Shown here in pieces: positions 2,420-30,588 of a stretch of DNA of 33,808 bases. The stretch is taken from positions 1 to 33,808 of the IMG/VR virus record IMGVR_UViG_3300037245_004426. The stretch is one strand, 5' to 3'. Position 1 is the first letter of the stretch. Every line of letters begins with the position of its first letter. A program made the translations under genes and the position numbers. The notes beneath the pieces were generated by a model. That model did not search any database. It was not told the DNA's origin and saw nothing but the letters and a program-made list of their open reading frames with translations. Source of the stretch: a virus.

Positions 2420-2938
2420 ATGAAAAGTTTAATTTTTACAATCATGTTAGCTGCGTTTTCTGTCGTGAACACAGGATGGGCTGACTTAGAAAAAGAACCA
2501 TATCACGAAATTTCTAAGTATGCAGGAATAAGTGGGTCCGATATTGCATTTGTGGTGCCAACCATAGGTATGAGAACCCAATATAAGGATGTTATGTTAG
2601 ACATTAATGCATCTTATCTACTAGTTAAAGGATCATGGGAAGACTGGCATTATGCAATAGTAAGTGCATCGGCACTATCTTCTTTTTTGAAAAATGATTT
2701 AGGAGAGGCTTATGGAGGCTTGGGACTTCAGGTAAGTGCACTCTTTAATCACGGACACTTAAAGGATAACCATAGGTCCCTCTATCCCGAATTTATAGCT
2801 GGGATTAAAAGGAATATTTCGGAAGAACACTTTATTTTCTTCCAAATTAATGTTCATCCATGGGAAATCCCTATTCACAGTCATTCTCCTGGAAAAAGAA
2901 GTGGCGGTGTGTTATTTAAAATGGGTATATCAATCTAG
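2420..2938 (+). CDS. Secreted outer-membrane-like protein (172 aa)
   Basis: ATG 2420 is chosen because it opens a typical signal peptide (MKSLIFTIMLAAFSVVNTGW, cleavage expected after Ala21). An upstream in-frame start at 2324 would bury the signal and overlap the promoter. The mature part has alternating hydrophobic and polar stretches (for example MLDINASYLLV, GLGLQVSALF, HFIFFQINVHPW, GVLFKMGISI) of the kind found in small outer-membrane beta-barrels. No specific family is identified. A monocistronic, separately promoted envelope protein in a phage is typical of a moron: a gene that alters the host surface, for example to exclude competing phages. That role is inference. It could also be a host gene picked up by transfer. 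Confidence 0.65.
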   Translation: MKSLIFTIMLAAFSVVNTGWADLEKEPYHEISKYAGISGSDIAFVVPTIGMRTQYKDVMLDINASYLLVKGSWEDWHYAIVSASALSSFLKNDLGEAYGGLGLQVSALFNHGHLKDNHRSLYPEFIAGIKRNISEEHFIFFQINVHPWEIPIHSHSPGKRSGGVLFKMGISI

Positions 2939-2968
2939 TCCTATTTCGCATTTTGACTTTGGCTCGCA

Positions 2969-3247
2969 ATGAAATTTGAATGTCCTTCTTGTTTCCTCTT
3001 GTGGGCTGATAGTCGGTCTCCTAAAGATGAATATCATCAAATCTTATGCTCTTTCTGCGCTAAGCGTCATACAGAAATAGAGCTTCTCAACTGGCAAATA
3101 GATCATATAGAAAACATTTCTTCAGAAAAACTTCCTCGTGTGATAAGAAATTTATTTAGATACGTCACACAAGAAATGAGCATTCTGAAGGAGAAAGTTT
3201 ATGAGCACGGCCTTTCCAGTGAAAAAGAGAAGGAAGAGGACTCCTAA
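2969..3247 (+). CDS. Small zinc-ribbon-like protein (92 aa)
   Basis: Two Cys pairs, CPSC at residues 5-8 and CSFC at 27-30, are spaced as in a zinc ribbon or treble-clef finger. A helical, charged C-terminal half follows. No enzyme domain is attached. The protein may bind nucleic acid or another protein through the zinc site. The start has only a weak ribosome site. The last 47 bp overlap the next gene, whose own strong AAGGAG site lies inside this frame, so the two belong to one transcript with 3491-3970. Confidence 0.65.
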   Translation: MKFECPSCFLLWADSRSPKDEYHQILCSFCAKRHTEIELLNWQIDHIENISSEKLPRVIRNLFRYVTQEMSILKEKVYEHGLSSEKEKEEDS

Positions 3248-4820: not shown

Positions 4821-5129
4821 ATGACTACCACCACGAGTGTCTTACCGGCTCCAGTGCAACAGGCTTTTAGCTATAAGTTGCTTAGTGTGCCAGTTCCTTA
4901 TTTTGTCCACAATATTCCAGCTATGCCTAAGCAGATGCCAAGGAATGGTGGTACAACACTTAGAATGCGCCGTTACAACCCACTAGGGACTGCTACAGTT
5001 CCCCTAGGAAATACCGGTGTTACTCCTCCTCCCCAACAGTTAACAGCCGTTAACATTGATGCTGAGATGGATTTCTATGGGAGCTACATAATTCTTAACG
5101 AGCAGGTAACACTGCAAAACCAAGACCCT
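4821..5129 (+). CDS. Major capsid protein, exon 1 (codons 1-103)
   Basis: This is the N-terminal third of an N4-gp56-like major capsid protein, preceded by GAGG. Characteristic stretches include GGTTLRMRRYNPLGTATVPL and DFYGSYIILNEQVTL, which in relatives continue directly into a 'DP-VLNE.A.RLG' segment. Here the frame instead runs into 19 unrelated residues and a stop at 5184-5186. The 103-codon exon ends with CAA GAC CCT at 5129. Joined to 5880, it gives a continuous 315-residue protein. The last exon bases AGACCCT pair with the intron guide as P1. Without splicing only a truncated, surely non-functional capsid fragment would be made. Confidence 0.93.
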
Positions 5130-5213
5130 AGACAACAAAATGGGGTCTCTAAACCAACTCTGATTGACTTGGAAGCCGCAGCGTAAAGACGGTGGCGACA
5201 GGGCGGAAGGACA

Positions 5214-5699
5214 TTAAGTTTTAAATGGATGACCATGAAAGCGAGAATTAAGTTTACGAATTTCCCTCAGAAGAGCCTCTCTTTGATGAACAGTTTCATC
5301 AGAAAGGCGCTTGCTTCCGATGTTTTTGTAGGTCTTTCGAATCTTTTTCATAACATCCGAATGAGGCTTTTTTATAATCAAGTAAGAGGAACACGTTTCA
5401 AGAATATGTTCAAGAAGAGGACCAGAGGCTGTCCAAGAATATACATCGCGCTCATAAGCGCGTTTGGATGTATATCTTGTTCTCATCTCTTTATATCCTC
5501 CGAAAAGTTCATTGAGCCAATCTATAAGAATTGCATCGCAAGAACAGATTTTGAGAAGGCAGTGCCATTGAGTACCATTGCCGTATCTTCCTTGCTTCAC
5601 TTTTCCAAAGTAGAAACATCCTTCTCCATCAATAAGGCCTGCCAAATAGGCAAGCTGAGTTGGAGTTTGATCGGTAGTAAACTTGACGATTCTTCCCAT
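5214..5699 (-). CDS. LAGLIDADG homing endonuclease, antisense within the intron
   Basis: The 161-residue protein (from ATG 5699, MGRIVKFT) carries one LAGLIDADG signature (LAGLIDGEGCFYFGK, residues 19-33), so it should act as a homodimer like single-motif family members. Such enzymes cut intronless alleles and spread their intron. A basic C-terminal region (KKIRKTYKNIG, LREIRKLNSR) fits DNA contact. An in-frame GTG at 5753 is rejected as start because it lies upstream of the -35 element of a good promoter (5724-5752) whose start would fall between the two. The gene lies in the loop between the 5' core and P7 and is opposite to the intron strand. Its transcript would be antisense to exon 1. 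Confidence 0.9.
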   Translation of the reverse strand: MGRIVKFTTDQTPTQLAYLAGLIDGEGCFYFGKVKQGRYGNGTQWHCLLKICSCDAILIDWLNELFGGYKEMRTRYTSKRAYERDVYSWTASGPLLEHILETCSSYLIIKKPHSDVMKKIRKTYKNIGSKRLSDETVHQREALLREIRKLNSRFHGHPFKT

Positions 5700-5723
5700 A
5701 TGACACTCATTTATTACTGTAAT

Positions 5724-5752
5724 ATAATAAACGAGAACTTGATTTATGTCCA
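5724..5752 (-). promoter_or_regulatory. Promoter for the antisense homing endonuclease
   Basis: On the minus strand TGGACA (5752-5747), a 17-nt spacer and TATTAT (5729-5724) match the sigma70 consensus at five of six bases each. Transcription would begin near 5717, about 18 nt before the ATG at 5699. This gives the endonuclease expression independent of capsid transcription. Confidence 0.6.
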
Positions 5753-5879
5753 CCGTGAGAGACTAAGTGAGATGGACCCGAAAGGGTATGCGATAGTCCG
5801 ACCCCAAGAGGAAACCTTGGGAGGGAGGAATAACAAGACTCCCCGCCTAGCTTTGCTAGGTCATAAAAGTAACAGAATG

Positions 5880-6518
5880 GTTTTAAATGAGGCCGCTCAA
5901 CGGCTTGGTGTTTCGTTACGCCAAACAGAGGATGAACTAACAAGAAACATGCTAGCTTCAACTGCTTCCTTCATTAACTGTGTGGGTGGAACAAATGGCG
6001 ATAACCCAACTGAACTCACTCGTAGCGATGTCGACGTTATTATCCGCACTCTTGCTGATAACAATGCTTACACAATTGCTGATAACATCGAAGGAGAAGA
6101 CCGGTTTGGAACTGCTCCTGTTAGGGATGCTTACTTTGCTCTTGGTTCAACTCAGCTTATTGGCGATCTTGAACAAGTAAATGGATTTATTGCTAAAGCA
6201 CAATATCCAAGTCAAATGAGTACACTACGCCCTGAGTGGGGAAGTGTCTCAAACCTACGTTTCCTTCTTTCTTCAATCGGATCTGAAACAGTAGCTGGAT
6301 CTAACAACGGAAACGATGTTTTCAACGTTTTCTGTGTTGGTATGGAAGCTTATGCAGTGGTTGAACAAGATGGTTACAGTGCGCAGTTTATCTACCGTCC
6401 ACCTATCTATGATGGACCTTTAGCACTCAATGCTTCTGTTGGATATAAATTTGCACAAGTACCACGTATCACAAACGATGCATGGGTCCTTAATCTTAGA
6501 ACAACATTAAGCGCTTAA
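5880..6518 (+). CDS. Major capsid protein, exon 2 (codons 104-315 and stop)
   Basis: The second exon begins VLNEAAQRLGVSLRQTEDEL and continues through MLASTASFINCVGG, RSDVDVIIRTL, NIEGEDRFGTAPVRDAYFAL, RFLLSSIGSE, CVGMEAYAVVEQDGYSAQFI and YKFAQVPRITNDAWVLNLR. These are hallmark blocks of N4-gp56-like HK97-fold capsid proteins. The 213 codons end at TAA 6516-6518. An open frame runs in from the intron, but the intron-encoded residues are compositionally unrelated and are not expected in the protein. The product is the shell subunit. It is followed at 6530 by a gene with its own AAGGAGG site. Confidence 0.95.
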   Translation, partial: VLNEAAQRLGVSLRQTEDELTRNMLASTASFINCVGGTNGDNPTELTRSDVDVIIRTLADNNAYTIADNIEGEDRFGTAPVRDAYFALGSTQLIGDLEQVNGFIAKAQYPSQMSTLRPEWGSVSNLRFLLSSIGSETVAGSNNGNDVFNVFCVGMEAYAVVEQDGYSAQFIYRPPIYDGPLALNASVGYKFAQVPRITNDAWVLNLRTTLSA

Positions 6519-15970: not shown

Positions 15971-17914
15971 ATGGTTTCCAAGAAAAAAAATCGTGCTTAT
16001 GGATTAGGCAGCCCCCTTCAAGATGTATTTCCAGAACCAGTAAAGGCTCAAAGAGCTCCTACCACAAGTGATCTAGGTTACGAGATTGGTCAAATGTGGG
16101 TAGACCAAGTTTCGGGTCAAATTTATGGATTAGCTAGTGTAGCGTCTAATTCCGCAGTATGGTCAGTTTTAGGACCCGGAGCTTCAGATGTAGATACATT
16201 AACTGGAGATACAGGTGGAGCACTTTCTCCCACAGCCGGTAATATTAATATTCTTGGTGGCGATGGACTTAGTGTGGCCGGAGCTGGTAGTACGCTTACG
16301 ATTAATAGAGACGCAGAAGGTGGATATCCAATTACACCTTATGTTGTCGGAGCCTCTGGAGAAGCTGGCTATGCAACGGTTCAAGCAGCTATAGATGCAG
16401 CAACATCCGCAGGAGGAACTAATGTTATTTGGGTTCAACCTGGAACTTACACAGAAGATTTAAATATCACTTCCAGCATTACTTTCATGAGTATCGATGG
16501 TGTCGCAATTATTACTGGAATTCATACTCCACCTGCTTCAGGCGCAGTTACTTTTGATGGATTCGTTTTAATAAGTGCTACCCATATTATTAGTTCAGCA
16601 GCAGCTGGATCGACAACATTCAACATAAACAACTCTTTCATCATTGTCACGAATGGTTATGTATTTAACGTCCCCAATTGGACAGGTGAAATTCTCATGG
16701 ATAACTGCGGAGAAGCGAGCACTAATGATGGAGTGGTCAACAATGCAACTGGATCTTCAGATATCAAGTTTATTAATGTTGAAATGGGTGCGGGAACAGG
16801 TCAGACCATGCAGCTCAATGGTGGTGGCGGATTCCTCCGATTCGATACATGTAATGTGAATTGCCCTGTAAACTTAGCAGGTTCTGGAGACCTTATAATG
16901 CAAAACGGGGTGCGTTTTGGGGATACAGTTACCATCGGTGGTTCTTTAACTGGATATGCTATTCAAACAGCATGGAGAACTGGAGCTAACCAAGCGATCA
17001 CTTTCAATTCTAGTGGAGACTTTTCTATTTCTAGTGGAGAAGTTCAATCTACAAATGATCCAGCGATTGGTGGAACCGGTGCAGGAACCCTTACTCTCAC
17101 TTCAATTGCTTTCCCAGATAATGCTAATTTGGCAGCTACTCTTACCGTTGTAGGGGGAACTACCACCTCAGGAACTTTCAATACAAGTGATCAAACAGCG
17201 GGGCTTACTATTTCGGGAGATGATATTGATGCGGATGGATCAGCTACCGATATTTCTATTACAGTATCTCCAAAAGGAACAGGAGACTTTATTGTAGATG
17301 TTGGTGATATCCAAGACACTGCTGGTGATATCATTGCTACGAGATCTAGTGCAGGTGGAGATGTTACGTTAGAGGCCACGAACTCTGATAATACCAATGC
17401 TGCTTCACGAGGTGGTTTTGAAGCTGCCGTTGGTGGAACAAGTGCTGGAGATCCCTATGTCAACTTCCTTATTAGTGGGGGTCAAAGCTTCACAATGGGT
17501 ATTGATAATAGCTCTACCAATGATGACTTTGTAATTTCAGACAATGCAACTCTTGGAACTAATGATCGTCTAGTGATCGATGGGACAACTGGAGATACCA
17601 GCGTCACAGGAAACCTCCTTCTTCCAACGGCTGCTACTCAGCTTCAAGTAGAAGGTGGAGCTGTTACCGACTTTATTGGGCAGGCCACTCTTGTTCTAGG
17701 AACTGTAACAGTTGCCAACACTAACATTGCGGCAACAGATAAAATATTCCTTTCTAGAGAAGGGGTGGGAGCTTCCACCACACTTGGTGAGCTTGATGTT
17801 TCGATTAGTGCATCCACAAGTTTCACTATTACAGCATTGCAAACAGGAACACCCGGATCTACAGAGACAGGTGATCTTTCGATTGTGAACTACTTTATCG
17901 TAAGACAACTATAG
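15971..17914 (+). CDS. Tail spike/fibre with beta-helix domain (647 aa)
   Basis: It starts at ATG 15971 behind AGAGGAC. Residues 1-70 form a virion-attachment head (DLGYEIGQMWVDQVSGQIYG). Residues 75-110 form the linker module 'TLTGDTGGALSPTAGNINILGG' type, shared with the genes at 18635 and 21757. From about 118 (PITPYVVGASGEAGYATVQA, then VQPGTYTEDL) runs a pectin-lyase-like right-handed beta-helix to about residue 400. The C-terminal part has SPKGTGDFIVDVGD and TGDTSVTGNLLL repeats and a distinct tip (ITALQTGTPGSTETGDLSIV). It probably forms trimers that recognise the host surface. No obvious catalytic residues can be assigned from sequence alone. Confidence 0.8.
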   Translation: MVSKKKNRAYGLGSPLQDVFPEPVKAQRAPTTSDLGYEIGQMWVDQVSGQIYGLASVASNSAVWSVLGPGASDVDTLTGDTGGALSPTAGNINILGGDGLSVAGAGSTLTINRDAEGGYPITPYVVGASGEAGYATVQAAIDAATSAGGTNVIWVQPGTYTEDLNITSSITFMSIDGVAIITGIHTPPASGAVTFDGFVLISATHIISSAAAGSTTFNINNSFIIVTNGYVFNVPNWTGEILMDNCGEASTNDGVVNNATGSSDIKFINVEMGAGTGQTMQLNGGGGFLRFDTCNVNCPVNLAGSGDLIMQNGVRFGDTVTIGGSLTGYAIQTAWRTGANQAITFNSSGDFSISSGEVQSTNDPAIGGTGAGTLTLTSIAFPDNANLAATLTVVGGTTTSGTFNTSDQTAGLTISGDDIDADGSATDISITVSPKGTGDFIVDVGDIQDTAGDIIATRSSAGGDVTLEATNSDNTNAASRGGFEAAVGGTSAGDPYVNFLISGGQSFTMGIDNSSTNDDFVISDNATLGTNDRLVIDGTTGDTSVTGNLLLPTAATQLQVEGGAVTDFIGQATLVLGTVTVANTNIAATDKIFLSREGVGASTTLGELDVSISASTSFTITALQTGTPGSTETGDLSIVNYFIVRQL

Positions 17915-18290: not shown

Positions 18291-18635
18291 ATGGCATACG
18301 GAACACGAGTTTCTTTTGATGCAATACGAGAACTTGCCTTTGGATCGGTTACAGGAACCTATGCGGCTTTAGGTGTGCCCACTTCTGATCATGTAAGGCT
18401 TATTTCACTTCAGAATCAAACTAATGAACAGGTCTATATTTCCTTTGATGGAACTACTGATCATCTTCGTTTATCCTCTAATTCATTCAAACTTTTAGAC
18501 CTATCAGCAAATAAAGTAAGGGATGATGGCCTTTTTATTGCTTCAGGAACTCAAATATACGTCAAATATGTAGGAACTCTCGGCACCTCGGGAAGTGTTT
18601 GGGCTGAAGTGATGTCCGCGGAAGGAGGAAAATAA
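18291..18635 (+). CDS. Small virion protein, paralog 2 of a tandem pair (114 aa)
   Basis: It starts three bases after paralog 1 and ends with a TAA that overlaps the next gene's ATG by one base (TAATG). Shared elements with paralog 1 are YAALG, YISFDGTTDHLRL and SGTQIYVKY. It diverges at the N-terminus (VSFDAIRELAFGSVTG) and C-terminus. A heteromeric or alternative copy of the same virion part is likely. The AAGGAGG-like site for the following spike gene lies within its last codons. Confidence 0.65.
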   Translation: MAYGTRVSFDAIRELAFGSVTGTYAALGVPTSDHVRLISLQNQTNEQVYISFDGTTDHLRLSSNSFKLLDLSANKVRDDGLFIASGTQIYVKYVGTLGTSGSVWAEVMSAEGGK

Positions 18636-21600
18636 TGTCTCAACAAGGGCCCTTAACGGATCTTAGTTCTGCTGGAACCGATATAGAAACTCTTACCGGA
18701 GATACAGGAGGAGCTGTAGGACCAGATGGACTATTTAATATTGATATTCTGGGCGGTGACACAACAACTGTTACCGGAAATCCAGGGACGAGCACTCTTA
18801 CTGTAGATGCCTCTGTTTCGGGTTACCCAATCACACCCTATGTGGTGGGACCTTCAGGACAAGCAGGTTATACAACTATTCAAGATGCTCTGGATGCAGC
18901 GAATACCGCTGGAGGTGGGATAGTCGGAGTACAGCCAGGAACGTACACAGAAGATCTTACTCTTTATGATGCTACAGAAGTAGTTGGGTTTGGAGGCAAC
19001 TCTTCAGTTAATGGTGGAGGAACTTATGCCCCTATAGTCATAACAGGAACTCATACTCCTCCTTTAACGGGTTCATTTGTATTTAAAAACCTCACTTTAA
19101 CAAGCGCTGGGAGTGTTATCTTTTCTGCCTCGGCACTCGGGACTGCCACCATTAATGTTGAAGGGTGTATCATCGGAAACATTTCAGGATATTTATTTGA
19201 TTTAGATAATTGGGGCGGCGAATTTTCCCTAATAAACACTATTAATCCCGGATCAGGAAATAGAGGAATCAATAATACTTTCGGTTCAAATGTCTTTATT
19301 CTCCAAAGTGAATTAGGATCTTTCGGAGCACTTAGCTCAAACCTCGGAGGAACTCACAGATTTCAAAACGCCACGTGCAGGACTCCGATTGCTTTTTTAG
19401 ATGGATCTGATACTCTTTTTAATAATGGAGTTTTTTTATCGGGATTTACGACGGCCGGAGCTTGTGAAGTCAGTGTATATGAAAGTTTAATTCAGAACTC
19501 TTCTTCTAGTGCCATTACCCATGAATCTGATGATCCATTGATCGTGAGCAATTGCACTGTAGATTCCTCCACCAATCCAGCTATAGCAGGCTCAGGAATG
19601 GGGCAATTAAGTTTAACGGGAATTGAGTTCACATCAAACACTTCCTTATCAGCAACTTTAACTGTAGTTGGAGGCACTTCTTACTCGGCTATTTATAAGT
19701 CTGATTATACCGATCATGGAGTAATATTAGGTCAAGGCTCAACTACTGACATGGTGGCAACACCCGCGGGTACAGATGGTCAAGTTTTAATAGGAGCTAC
19801 AGGTGCCGATCCGGCTTTTGCAAGTCTAACTTCCACAGGAGAAACCCTTGCTTTTACGTCAGGAGCTAATTCTCTTAATATAGATTTTAGTGACAATGCT
19901 AAAACGACGGCAGTAAATGGATGGAATGGGTCTATAAAAGAATCAGCAGCTGTAACCGTTACTTCGGATGGAGCTACGATCACCTGCTCCGTAGAGCAAA
20001 GTGGCGGAGGCGATTTAACAGTTGTATTTTCAGATGGATTTTATGACTGGGATACTACGCCAGCAGATACAGTTACTTTAACCGCTGGAACCGATACAGC
20101 TCCCCAATTAAATTACGTATATTTTCTTCAGTCTACTAAAACGTTAACCGCAAGTACCACTAGTTTCCCTGCTACAGAATATGCTCCCATAGCGACCGTC
20201 CTTTGCCAAAGTGCCTCTTCTCTTCAAACTGAAGGTGCATATAAAATGAATGCTTGGGCGGATCATGTCACGGGATCAAATGACCAAGGGCACATTCCCG
20301 ATTTAAATTATTGGATTAGAAAACAAAATGCCACCTGGGAATCAGGTGTTTCTCAGACTTATACGATAACTCCTAATGGGGGAGTCCCCGACAATGTTCT
20401 TATCACCACAGCTATTGGATCTGTTCTACAACTTCACCCACACACTTTCCCTGCTTTTAGTGGAACTCCCGATTACTACGTGATTAATGATTCAGTCACT
20501 CCTTATACGATAACAACTGACTTGAACACTCTTCTTACCGACTCTACAGGGGCAAGTATGAGCGGAAGATATTTTTCTCTTGTCTTGTGGGGCGTTGTTA
20601 GTGAAGATACGACAGATTGCAAGTTATTCATAAACCTACCTTCCGGAAGCTATAATAACTCGGCAGGAGTTCTTAGGGATATCTCTGAATTCGCTAACTT
20701 TACTATTCCCGATGAATTTAAAGGAACAGGATTTCTTATTTCCCAGTGGAATTTGCGTCATCAAGCTGCTTCTGGGGGAAGATGGACTTCCCTCGAAGAA
20801 AAAGACTTGAGAGGACTAGCTCCTTCTATAACTCCAGGAGGAACCACAGGAACACCAACTGAATTTGATGACAGTACTTTCCGTATATTTGACAATGCTG
20901 ATGATACAAAAGAAATAGCCTTTGAAGCTTCCTCTATAACGACGGCTACTACACGCACCATTACAATGTCCGACTATGATTTAGATCTCTCTACAGTAGC
21001 TAATTCTGTTCCCACCGATGCCGGAACAGCGACCCCGGCAGCTGGAGTTCTTACTATTTCAGGAGGGACAAATATCAATACAAGTGGGGGGTCCTCAACT
21101 GCTACAGTTAATCTCGACGGAGATGTATTCGGACTCACTGACCTGACAGTAGATAACCTACAGATCAATGGAAATACTTTATCCAGTACCGATACAAATG
21201 GAGATGTGATTATAGCTCCCGATGGGTCAGGAGCTGTTTCAGTGTCAGCAGCTCCTATTGTTCCAACAACCGATCGAGCCGATTCTTTAGGTTCGGCTAC
21301 AAATTCATGGGATAATCTCTACGCAGATGGTGTCACTTTCGATGATGGCTCTAATGTAATGAGTGCTTATGAAGAAGGAACGTGGACACCGGCACTAACA
21401 TTTGGTGGTGGTTCTACAGGGATAACCTATACCACGCAACAAGGAACTTATACACGCATCGGAAACACTGTATTTTACACTCTTTTCCTTCAGATTTCTA
21501 ATAAAGGAAGCTCCACTGGGGCAGCTACTATTACTGGACTGCCGTTTACAGTCGGTTCTTCTAGTTTCACATCTACAGTTGGAGGATACGGCGCCATAAA

Positions 21601-21760
21601 TCTAACAGCTGGTTATACAACTGTTGGAATTAGAGCGAATACAGCTACAACGACTGCCGGGCTGGTGCAATCGGGAGATAATGTGGCATTCGCAACTATC
21701 ACGGACGCTGAATACAATAATTCAAGTCTTGTAACTACAACCGGGTTTTATATTGTATGA
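18635..21760 (+). CDS. Large modular tail spike/fibre (1041 aa)
   Basis: The longest gene here, coupled by TAATG. Module order: short linker with TLTGDTGGAVGPDGLFNIDI (residues 19-38); beta-helix from PITPYVVGPSGQAGYTTIQD (about 68) to about 350, parallel to the 15971 spike; TPAGTDGQVLIGATGADPAF linker; a middle domain (about 400-720) with GHIPDLNYWIRKQNATWESG; a fibre-type segment GFLISQWNLRHQA; and a C-terminal tip. The tip includes DSLGSATNSWDNLYADGVTF and 'YEEGTWTPALTFGGGSTGI', 'YTRIGNTVFYTLFLQISNKG'. That tip is duplicated in the next gene. It is expected to be a trimeric receptor-binding protein. Catalytic residues for a depolymerase are not identifiable by eye. Confidence 0.8.
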   Translation: MSQQGPLTDLSSAGTDIETLTGDTGGAVGPDGLFNIDILGGDTTTVTGNPGTSTLTVDASVSGYPITPYVVGPSGQAGYTTIQDALDAANTAGGGIVGVQPGTYTEDLTLYDATEVVGFGGNSSVNGGGTYAPIVITGTHTPPLTGSFVFKNLTLTSAGSVIFSASALGTATINVEGCIIGNISGYLFDLDNWGGEFSLINTINPGSGNRGINNTFGSNVFILQSELGSFGALSSNLGGTHRFQNATCRTPIAFLDGSDTLFNNGVFLSGFTTAGACEVSVYESLIQNSSSSAITHESDDPLIVSNCTVDSSTNPAIAGSGMGQLSLTGIEFTSNTSLSATLTVVGGTSYSAIYKSDYTDHGVILGQGSTTDMVATPAGTDGQVLIGATGADPAFASLTSTGETLAFTSGANSLNIDFSDNAKTTAVNGWNGSIKESAAVTVTSDGATITCSVEQSGGGDLTVVFSDGFYDWDTTPADTVTLTAGTDTAPQLNYVYFLQSTKTLTASTTSFPATEYAPIATVLCQSASSLQTEGAYKMNAWADHVTGSNDQGHIPDLNYWIRKQNATWESGVSQTYTITPNGGVPDNVLITTAIGSVLQLHPHTFPAFSGTPDYYVINDSVTPYTITTDLNTLLTDSTGASMSGRYFSLVLWGVVSEDTTDCKLFINLPSGSYNNSAGVLRDISEFANFTIPDEFKGTGFLISQWNLRHQAASGGRWTSLEEKDLRGLAPSITPGGTTGTPTEFDDSTFRIFDNADDTKEIAFEASSITTATTRTITMSDYDLDLSTVANSVPTDAGTATPAAGVLTISGGTNINTSGGSSTATVNLDGDVFGLTDLTVDNLQINGNTLSSTDTNGDVIIAPDGSGAVSVSAAPIVPTTDRADSLGSATNSWDNLYADGVTFDDGSNVMSAYEEGTWTPALTFGGGSTGITYTTQQGTYTRIGNTVFYTLFLQISNKGSSTGAATITGLPFTVGSSSFTSTVGGYGAINLTAGYTTVGIRANTATTTAGLVQSGDNVAFATITDAEYNNSSLVTTTGFYIV

Positions 21761-28784: not shown

Positions 28785-29246
28785 ATGGTTCAACAAGCAC
28801 AAGTATCGGAAGAGTATCTAGACACCATTTGCGACTGGTTAGAAGAGTGGGTGAAGAAGCCCACTAGCATGGCTATCCCACAGTTTTTGTCCCACAGGGG
28901 GATAGGGTGGGGTTTTTTCAAGCAATTTTTGGAGATGTCTCCCAAATTACAAAACACCTTTGAAGTAGTAGTGTGTGAGCTACACTCTAGGTGGATCGAC
29001 TATGCCTTCAGTAAAAAAGAAATATCAAGGCATCTCCAGTCTATTCTAATGAGATACTTAAGGGTTTATGATCCACATGCATTTGATCTTGAACTCATGG
29101 CAAAAAAGGAAGTTGCTGAATCTTCTAATTTAACCCTGATAAAATATGAGTCAGAAAACTACTCCTCAGCCGACCTTCAAGGAGTTTTTAAGCAGAAGTA
29201 CGAAGACAATGCTAACAAACGTAGAAGTCGAAAGAAAGCTAAATAG
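28785..29246 (+). CDS. terS: Terminase small subunit (153 aa)
   Basis: The first gene after the terminators and directly before the large terminase. The product has an N-terminal helical, HTH-like region (VSEEYLDTICDWLEEWVKKP; IPQFLSHRGIGWGFFKQFLE), a helical core (ELHSRWIDYAFSKKEISRHL) and a very basic C-terminus (KYEDNANKRRSRKKAK). This matches small terminases that recognise the packaging site as a ring and feed it to TerL. Position is the strongest evidence. The C-terminal coding sequence overlaps the large-subunit gene. Confidence 0.8.
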   Translation: MVQQAQVSEEYLDTICDWLEEWVKKPTSMAIPQFLSHRGIGWGFFKQFLEMSPKLQNTFEVVVCELHSRWIDYAFSKKEISRHLQSILMRYLRVYDPHAFDLELMAKKEVAESSNLTLIKYESENYSSADLQGVFKQKYEDNANKRRSRKKAK

Positions 29247-30588
29247 GTATGTTCCCCGAGCCTACCAGATTCCAGTTCTTAAGGCATTAGACGAGGGGTT
29301 CAAGCGCGTCTTAGCTATTCTTCCCAGGCGTGCTGGAAAGGACATCACTGCTCTCAACTACGTCATCAGAAAAATGTGGGAGTGCCCTGGTGTGTACTAC
29401 TATATTTTCCCTACCTATTCTCAAGCCAAGAAAGTTATCTGGGACTCTCTCGACAACGATGGACACAGAATTCTCGACTACTTCCCGAAGGACCTCGTAG
29501 TCCAAATGAACTCTCAGGAAATGAAGATCCGAATGAAGACGAAGGATGGTGGAACCTCTCTTTTTCAACTTATTGGCTCAGATAACTATGACAGTCTTAT
29601 GGGCACTAACCCTCGAGGATGCGTCTTTTCCGAATATGCGCTGCAAGACCCGCTAGCCTACCGATATATTCGTCCTATACTGACGGCCAATGGGGGTTGG
29701 GCCCTTTTTATTTCAACGCCAAGGGGAAAGAATCACCTTTGGAACATCTACCAAATAGCTCAGCAATCACCCGACTGGTTTTGTTACAAGTTAACCATCG
29801 AAGACACAAACCATATTCCGTTAGAAGAAATAGAGAAAGAAAAAAGATCAGGTGAGCTTTCTCAGGACATGATCATGCAAGAATACTACACCTCTTTTGA
29901 GATGGGTGTAGAAGGTTCTTACTACGCTTCTTACATGGATCGAATGAGACGGGAGCAGAAGATAAGCGATGTTCCGTGGGAGTGTGCATTTCCAGTTCAT
30001 ACTGCTTGGGATATTGGAGTAAGAGACAGCACAACTATCATCTTCTTTCAGACTATCGGACAGACGGTTCGGATCATTGACTGCTACCAGAACTCCAAGC
30101 AGGGAGTTGAGCATTATGCAGAGATCATTCATAACAAACCATACACCTACGGGAAGCACATCGCCCCACATGACATCCGCGTTAAAGAGTGGGGATCAGG
30201 AATCACTCGTTATGAGAAAGCCCGTCAGCTTGGTGTTAAGTTCACTATTGCAGATCAGTTTCAGATCCCAGACGGAATAGAAGCTTGTCGGTCATTATTC
30301 TCTAAGTTATGGATTGATGACGGGAAGTGCGAGGAGCTTGTTAAGGCTCTAGAGAACTATCGACAAGAGTACGATGTGAAGAAAAAAGTATATCTTCCAC
30401 GTCCTCTTCATGATTGGTCTTCTCATTTTGCAGATTCCTTCAGGTATCTCGCCGTCTCTTTACCCAAGACTTCTGATGGCATTTCTGCTAAAGAGATAGA
30501 GGAGCAGTACAATGAAGCTCAATACGGGGGCAACAGTAATATGCCCTCAATTTTTCAAGACAACGTTTATGTAGGACGACATCACTAA
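29209..30588 (+). CDS. terL: Terminase large subunit (459 aa)
   Basis: The ATPase has the Walker A variant ILPRRAGKD (about residues 37-45), Walker B VFSEY (139-143) and the coupling motif STPRGKNHLW (169-178). The RNase H-like nuclease has AWDIGVRDS (Asp268, Asp273) and a C-terminal HDWSSHFADSFRYL. It cuts concatemers and pumps DNA through the portal. ATG 29209 (MLTNVEVERKLNRYVPRAYQ) is chosen as start; ATG 29146 is an alternative that would add 21 residues and overlap terS by 101 bp. The stop overlaps the portal ATG as TAATG. Confidence 0.93.
   Translation: MLTNVEVERKLNRYVPRAYQIPVLKALDEGFKRVLAILPRRAGKDITALNYVIRKMWECPGVYYYIFPTYSQAKKVIWDSLDNDGHRILDYFPKDLVVQMNSQEMKIRMKTKDGGTSLFQLIGSDNYDSLMGTNPRGCVFSEYALQDPLAYRYIRPILTANGGWALFISTPRGKNHLWNIYQIAQQSPDWFCYKLTIEDTNHIPLEEIEKEKRSGELSQDMIMQEYYTSFEMGVEGSYYASYMDRMRREQKISDVPWECAFPVHTAWDIGVRDSTTIIFFQTIGQTVRIIDCYQNSKQGVEHYAEIIHNKPYTYGKHIAPHDIRVKEWGSGITRYEKARQLGVKFTIADQFQIPDGIEACRSLFSKLWIDDGKCEELVKALENYRQEYDVKKKVYLPRPLHDWSSHFADSFRYLAVSLPKTSDGISAKEIEEQYNEAQYGGNSNMPSIFQDNVYVGRHH

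Follow-up and report, generated by a model that had tools for sequence, protein, structure and literature searches.

A probable mobile group I intron carrying an antisense LAGLIDADG endonuclease gene in the major capsid gene of a virus from metagenomic data

The major capsid gene of the virus record IMGVR_UViG_3300037245_004426 (33.8 kb) is split by 750 nt. The record was analysed over its whole length of 33,808 nucleotides, referred to here as the window. Positions 5130–5879 are very probably a mobile self-splicing group I intron. Exon continuity, empty sites in relatives, covariation in the core, and homology of and selection on an endonuclease were observed; splicing, promoter use, cleavage and homing are inferred. 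Splicing would be required for an essential, highly expressed virion gene, and the endonuclease gene would be expressed from the opposite strand. The initial annotation had noted a capsid gene split by an intron. The split itself was confirmed, and its reading as an intron is supported by intronless relatives, by introns at the same site in about 30 related phages, and by covariation in the core.

Capsid exons and their junction

The capsid gene and its insertion occupy the following positions.

4821..5129, plus strand: major capsid gene exon 1, residues 1–103 (TIGR04387 profile positions 1–100, E = 1.9e-12; phrog_1357 23–128)
5130..5879, plus strand: group I intron, 750 nt, phase 0, between codons 103 and 104 (intronless relatives; spliced alignment; core-model matches)
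5880..6518, plus strand: major capsid gene exon 2, residues 104–315 and stop (TIGR04387 102–322, E = 2.3e-21; phrog_1357 132–345)

Two halves of an N4-gp56 capsid protein had been predicted 750 nt apart, and TIGR04387 and phrog_1357 each matched both halves in order. The TIGR04387 cut-off of 60 bits was exceeded by exon 2 of the window alone (76.4 bits) and by the uninterrupted protein of the nearest relative, L003 (141.8 bits), so that membership of the N4-gp56 family was met. No other capsid gene was found in the record. Joining exons of 309 and 639 bp at 5129/5880 gives 315 aa, and the claim that the frame is kept held up: the same protein is continuous, without an insertion at the predicted codon junction, in 65 of the first 80 IMG/VR relatives. 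L003, whose DNA is 88% identical to that of the joined exons, is continuous exactly at 5129/5880, where CAAGATCCA is followed directly by GTTCTTAATG. Spliced alignment guided by nothing but the protein profile and general U/G preferences arrived at the same junction, length (750 nt) and phase (0). Comparison of the joined 315-aa protein with relatives, which had been proposed as a check, showed that uninterrupted homologues encode it across 5129/5880.

The frame of exon 1 reads on for 18 aa into the intron to a stop at 5184–5186, and a second frame stays open from 5229 to the end of exon 2. Both frames would be expected of a degenerate intron in a capsid made as two polypeptides, namely exon 1 with an 18-aa tail (stop 5186) and an exon 2 product whose translation begins internally, e.g. 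inside the frame 5229–6518. Nevertheless, this is very unlikely. The intervening residues, whose presence in relatives would have refuted the intron, are never encoded by uninterrupted relatives; P1, P10, the core and the terminal G are intact and covarying; and the sense frame is less constrained than the antisense frame, of which it looks like a mirror image. An intein or other in-frame protein insertion would account for a frame kept across a 750-nt insertion with an endonuclease gene, but can practically be dismissed given the in-frame stop at 5184–5186 and an endonuclease gene that, being antisense, cannot belong to the capsid polypeptide.

Two other parts of the record were noted in passing. 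Large tail-like proteins at 15971–17914 and 18635–21760 have the repeated modules YPITPYVVG.SG.AGY.T.Q.A and PGTYTEDL in common, which, as far as sequence can tell, suggests duplication of a beta-helix-like part. Open frames at 28785–29246 and 29146–30588 (plus strand) overlap; the second is the large terminase, which probably starts later than 29146.

Intron RNA and the endonuclease gene in loop L6

The elements of the intron are given in order along the window.

5123..5148, plus strand: P1, 7 bp, 5123–5129 with 5142–5148, terminal U5129–G5142 (sequence)
5137..5141, plus strand: P10 strand, pairs with 5880–5884 of exon 2 (permutation test)
5154..5160, plus strand: P3 5′ strand, pairs with 5769–5775, one A–A mismatch (consensus P3)
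5168..5206, plus strand: P4, 5168–5171/5199–5202, and P5, 5175–5179/5192–5196 (core-model match 5151–5252; covariation)
within 5168..5206, plus strand: P6 5′ strand, 5203–5206, pairs with 5753–5756 (core-model match; covariation)
5209..5214, plus strand: P6a 5′ strand, pairs with 5746–5751, endonuclease gene in the loop beyond (sequence; fold of the joined 5′ and 3′ parts)
5214..5699, minus strand: LAGLIDADG homing endonuclease gene, 161 aa, motif LAGLIDGEG, in loop L6 (I-MsoI profile; Foldseek; pN/pS)
5724..5752, minus strand: promoter-like site TGGACA-17-TATTAT upstream of the antisense gene (consensus match only)
5761..5798, plus strand: P7, 5761–5765/5794–5798, and P3 3′ strand, 5769–5775 (core-model match 5704–5801)
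within 5761..5798, plus strand: P8, 5776–5779/5784–5787, GAAA loop (core-model match 5704–5801)
within 5803..5861, plus strand: P9, 5803–5808/5816–5821 (sequence; fold)
within 5803..5861, plus strand: P9.1, 5823–5827/5839–5843 (sequence; fold)
within 5803..5861, plus strand: P9.2, 5845–5851/5855–5861 (sequence; fold)
5866..5879, plus strand: intron 3′ end AAAGTAACAGAATG, terminal G5879 (clade 3′-end consensus)

P1 with its terminal U–G, P10, P7, the GAAA-capped P8, P9, P9.1 and the terminal G had all been described in the initial annotation, and every one was recovered in the sequence at the positions listed; P3, P4, P5, P6, P6a and P9.2 were located in addition. The minimum free energy fold of the whole 781-nt region (z −2.5) was not used for the structure, as it lost the core to pairings with the endonuclease ORF. 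P1 spans 6–8 bp in 23 same-site introns, ends in U–G throughout, and changes along with the exon (GACCCT/GGGGTC to GATCCT/GGGATC). P10 at this site (site 103.0) fits its own exon 2, with a mean of 4.65 bp versus 3.10 bp when permuted (0/20000 permutations). Nearly every intron of the clade has the pattern AGTAA[CT]AG...G at its 3′ end.

Core covariation was measured on an alignment of 19 short, endonuclease-free introns of relatives, from which the window was excluded, and was counted over the named P3–P8 structure including the P3/P7 pseudoknot. Pairing was found in 95.1% of cells versus 73.0% after shuffling, and the covariation score was 0.615 versus 0.207, a value reached by none of 500 shuffles. 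Sliding the partners destroyed the signal. The consensus P3 consists of seven pairs with compensatory changes in every one. A family-specific covariance model of 116 positions, built from this alignment, matched the window at 5151–5252 (E = 1.1e-5) and 5704–5801 (E = 1.8e-5), both on the plus strand and nowhere else; the two matches belong to one core, whose 5′ half and 3′ half are separated by the insert in L6. A core with the P3/P7 pseudoknot, a U–G P1 and a terminal G are together diagnostic of group I introns. The core (P3-P4-P5-P6-P7-P8 with the pseudoknot) passed this test, the P7 and P3 strands being in place in the window, and so did the ends, with a U–G P1 at the 5′ splice site, G5879 as last nucleotide and P10 aligning exon 2.

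A search with Rfam RF00028 had been put forward as a check. No match to this model was obtained on the window at gathering or relaxed thresholds, even at E 10, so a group I assignment by RF00028 was not met. The model was equally silent on 12 loci that include relatives whose core is proven by covariation; its silence is therefore uninformative and no valid refuter, RF00028 being a detection model and not a defining feature. Taken at face value, the missing match would favor an intron of group II or of another class, or a chimera created in assembly. Either is extremely unlikely, however, since the pseudoknotted core, the U–G P1 and the terminal G are present and covarying and the arrangement recurs in many independent contigs.

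Although sound on the structure of the intron, the initial annotation overlooked the antisense endonuclease gene inside it. Evidence for this gene came from a profile search, which identified I-MsoI (E = 3.3e-22), and from an AlphaFold2 model (mean pLDDT 84.7), for which Foldseek retrieved I-MsoI, I-CvuI and I-CreI with E about 1e-7 over about 140–150 residues. Pfam and NCBIfam protein searches at default thresholds gave no match for the endonuclease; 13 of 13 members matched PF00961, the window enzyme below threshold. The PHROGs label HNH was discarded as wrong, being contradicted by the fold. By motif and fold, the 161-aa protein meets the test for a LAGLIDADG homing endonuclease. Compared with 15 same-site relatives, the antisense frame had the lowest pN/pS of the six frames, at 0.36–0.61 for most relatives and 0.70 for L181; the divergent L217 gave a tie at 0.88, and its gene shows no clear selection. 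Judged by these substitution ratios, the endonuclease gene is under purifying selection. A sense ORF at 5229–6518 (429 aa, from the intron into exon 2) was rejected as a gene, since by its frame statistics it seems to mirror the antisense gene.

The sigma-70-like site at 5752–5724 (minus strand) has 10/12 matches, and a TATTAT or TATAAT stretch and a Shine–Dalgarno (SD) sequence before the start codon are kept in most relatives, the SD of the window's own gene being weak. Because of this site and these conserved stretches, an antisense transcript of its own is the probable source of the endonuclease, although promoter use is inferred.

In the proposed mechanism, the intron would fold within the late transcript into P1–P10 and the P3–P8 core. 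Exogenous G would attack after U5129 and exon 1 would then attack after G5879, joining the capsid mRNA in frame. The gene in L6 would probably be read from the promoter on the opposite strand and so be independent of the late transcript. Its product, an I-CreI-like single-motif enzyme, probably acts as a homodimer that would cut intronless alleles near the strongly conserved QDP/VLNEA codons, repair then copying the intron in.

Intron sites and coreless elements in related capsid genes

Relatives were sampled as 207 distinct, complete capsid genes (contigs L002–L282) from three homology scans and one motif scan. Introns in a gene of this kind had been called uncommon, which needs qualifying: 74 of the 207 genes carry complete introns, a fraction that is not a population frequency as the sample is not random, and the case of mycobacteriophage LittleE was already known (PMC3706429). 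About 30 intron positions were found within one 315-codon gene, the exact position being uncertain by some bases at a few sites represented by a single case. Up to four introns occur in one gene (L158; 51.1, 129.0, 143.0 and 178.2).

Site 103.0, that of the window, is the commonest (33/207 genes; introns of 203–1263 nt). The endonuclease gene is antisense in most of its 700–830-nt introns (e.g. the window, L037 and L108) and sense in L113, larger sense genes are found in L096, L141, L166 and L177, and short introns have none. As orientations and sizes differ at this one site, endonuclease genes entered the intron more than once and in both directions. The capsid gene of this clade, whose phage genomes are about 35–40 kb, is a mobile-intron hotspot; organellar cox1 is a comparable one.

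Two database matches were also noted. Positions 81420–81484 of Nitratidesulfovibrio phage SRB7757 (PV062637), unannotated in that record, are 80% identical to the 5′ core of the window intron; on this similarity, that cultured phage may have a related group I intron there. A 4.5-kb contig, L252 (JAEORV010000230.1), carries a 60% identical capsid gene within a metagenome-assembled genome labelled Lokiarchaeota; it is probably a stray phage contig in that bin. Lokiarchaeota as host would rest on this one genome-collection match, which is too weak to use.

In some sister genes the spliced alignment also removed 32–65 nt after codon 87. These inserts are mostly not multiples of three, contain stop codons, and all end in ATG, TTG or GTG, some with GGAG before it. 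Such coreless elements were found in at least 20 sister genes (e.g. L254 1118–1176, L268 1372–1426 and L108 1116–1168); the window has a full intron and no codon-87 element. Each element holds an exact antisense of the joined exons, and the examples found by protein homology alone all have a P1 of at least 7 bp ending in U–G and a P10 of at least 4 bp. The P1/P10 guide pairing and the terminal G of group I introns are thus met. A catalytic core of their own is absent from these 32–65-nt elements (the model has 116 positions), and the model matches fall in complete neighbors. Complete introns with the same kind of guide also occur at the codon-87 site (e.g. L039), and the short elements have therefore probably lost their core.

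A motif scan of IMG/VR returned 30 stretches, 29 of which are a codon-87 element in a capsid gene. The pattern fixes six P1 and two P10 pairs, which accordingly provide no evidence. It places no constraint on the wobble base of codon 88 or on its partner; of 24 distinct elements, 23 have a Watson–Crick pair there, and all four types occur (C–G 13, G–C 6, T–A 3, A–T 1). Likewise free was a tether helix of 8–13 bp, in which the 3′ part of the element pairs with the exon; it scored 10.4 with its own exon versus 6.3 when permuted (0/10000 permutations). Relatedness of the elements inflates the permutation results.

The exon strand of the tether follows the site of the next intron. With an intron at codon 95 its last position is nt 18 of the mini-exon, immediately 5′ of the P1 strand GAGCAGGT; with one at codon 103 it ends at about nt 39, directly before the P1 strand CAAGACCCT or CAAGATCCT, extending to nt 41–43 in a few, including the codon-103.2 relatives. 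In L273, which has an extra intron at codon 92, the GTTCTGTA of the element skips that intron, and its complement TACAGAAC lies directly beside the codon-103 intron. Descent by itself does not easily account for four types of wobble pair and a tether that switches with the neighbor's site.

All contigs that extend far enough have, at codon 92–103, either a complete intron or an insertion matched by the core model, and the complete neighbor lies within about 50 nt of exon 3′ of the element; some of these matches are weak (e.g. L269 and L277). Only about one in seven genes without a codon-87 element has an intron at codon 92–103. The neighbors at codon 103 belong to the site family of the window's intron.

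It is reasonably likely, short of firm, that the complete intron at codon 95 or 103 lends its catalytic core to the removal of the coreless introns at codon 87. By inference, the neighbor's core would accept the P1 helix of the element, and attack by G would release the exon that ends with codon 87; this exon, kept in place by P10 and the tether helix, would attack after the element's terminal G; and the core would then splice its own intron. One ribozyme would thereby splice both ends of the mini-exon, with guide and tether supplied by the short element. Three other accounts of the inserts were rejected. Against dead remnants, no second capsid gene was found in ten contigs with a codon-87 element. 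Translational bypass would need a landing codon to match the take-off codon GGT, and there is none; nor would it explain the guide pairing. As restart signals of a split gene, some inserts lack an SD, and the antisense guide, the wobble covariation and the tether remain unexplained. We know of no earlier case of group I introns without a core living on that of a neighbor. Dependence on a neighbor's core is a step often imagined on the path of self-splicing introns to shared machinery.

Comparison with known systems

No description of such an intron-dense capsid gene or of the coreless elements was found in the literature searched, from which subscription papers and preprints were mostly absent, and within the same limited coverage no natural precedent for core sharing at codon 87 was found. 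Comparable reactions in trans have been described for engineered group I ribozymes, namely trans excision-splicing and spliceozymes (e.g. PMC4094466). Trans excision-splicing resembles the codon-87 model in that a group I core removes an RNA segment outside its own intron; it uses laboratory constructs, whereas the codon-87 case would be natural, with the guide on the excised segment. If the model is correct, the codon-87 elements are a natural counterpart of trans excision-splicing.

In StenR_269 (OR838459; L091), a distant N4-gp56 Stenotrophomonas podophage, a LAGLIDADG gene at 2732–3181 lies between the scaffold and N4-gp56 capsid genes. The capsid gene adjoins this gene, which has 30% identity to that of the window. 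In contrast to the window, the capsid gene is uninterrupted and the LAGLIDADG gene is free-standing, upstream and sense; a first impression of a same-site intron was accordingly rejected.

I-MsoI, I-CreI and I-CvuI share with the window enzyme the same fold, about 20% identity over nearly the whole length, and an intron-borne gene. Each has one motif and is presumably a homodimer. The window enzyme differs in having E for the catalytic D of the motif (LAGLIDGEG), a capsid-gene target, and an antisense position in a phage intron.

The closest parallel is LittleE, in which an 819-bp insertion with U/G ends interrupts the major capsid gene and relatives are intronless (PMC3706429). The type of intron was called unclear, most likely group I, and splicing was shown by RT-PCR and protein sequencing; gp14 (177 aa) is a LAGLIDADG-like ORF on the bottom strand, and another capsid-gene intron, in Tuc2009, was cited (PMC3706429). 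The insertion in the capsid gene, the bottom-strand LAGLIDADG-like ORF and the intronless relatives are as in the window, whereas the two endonucleases have only the motif region in common. Unlike in LittleE, the group I core in the window is supported by covariation, and its gene belongs to a clade with about 30 intron sites. A capsid-gene intron with an antisense LAGLIDADG gene is therefore already known from LittleE, to which the window adds a better-supported group I core.
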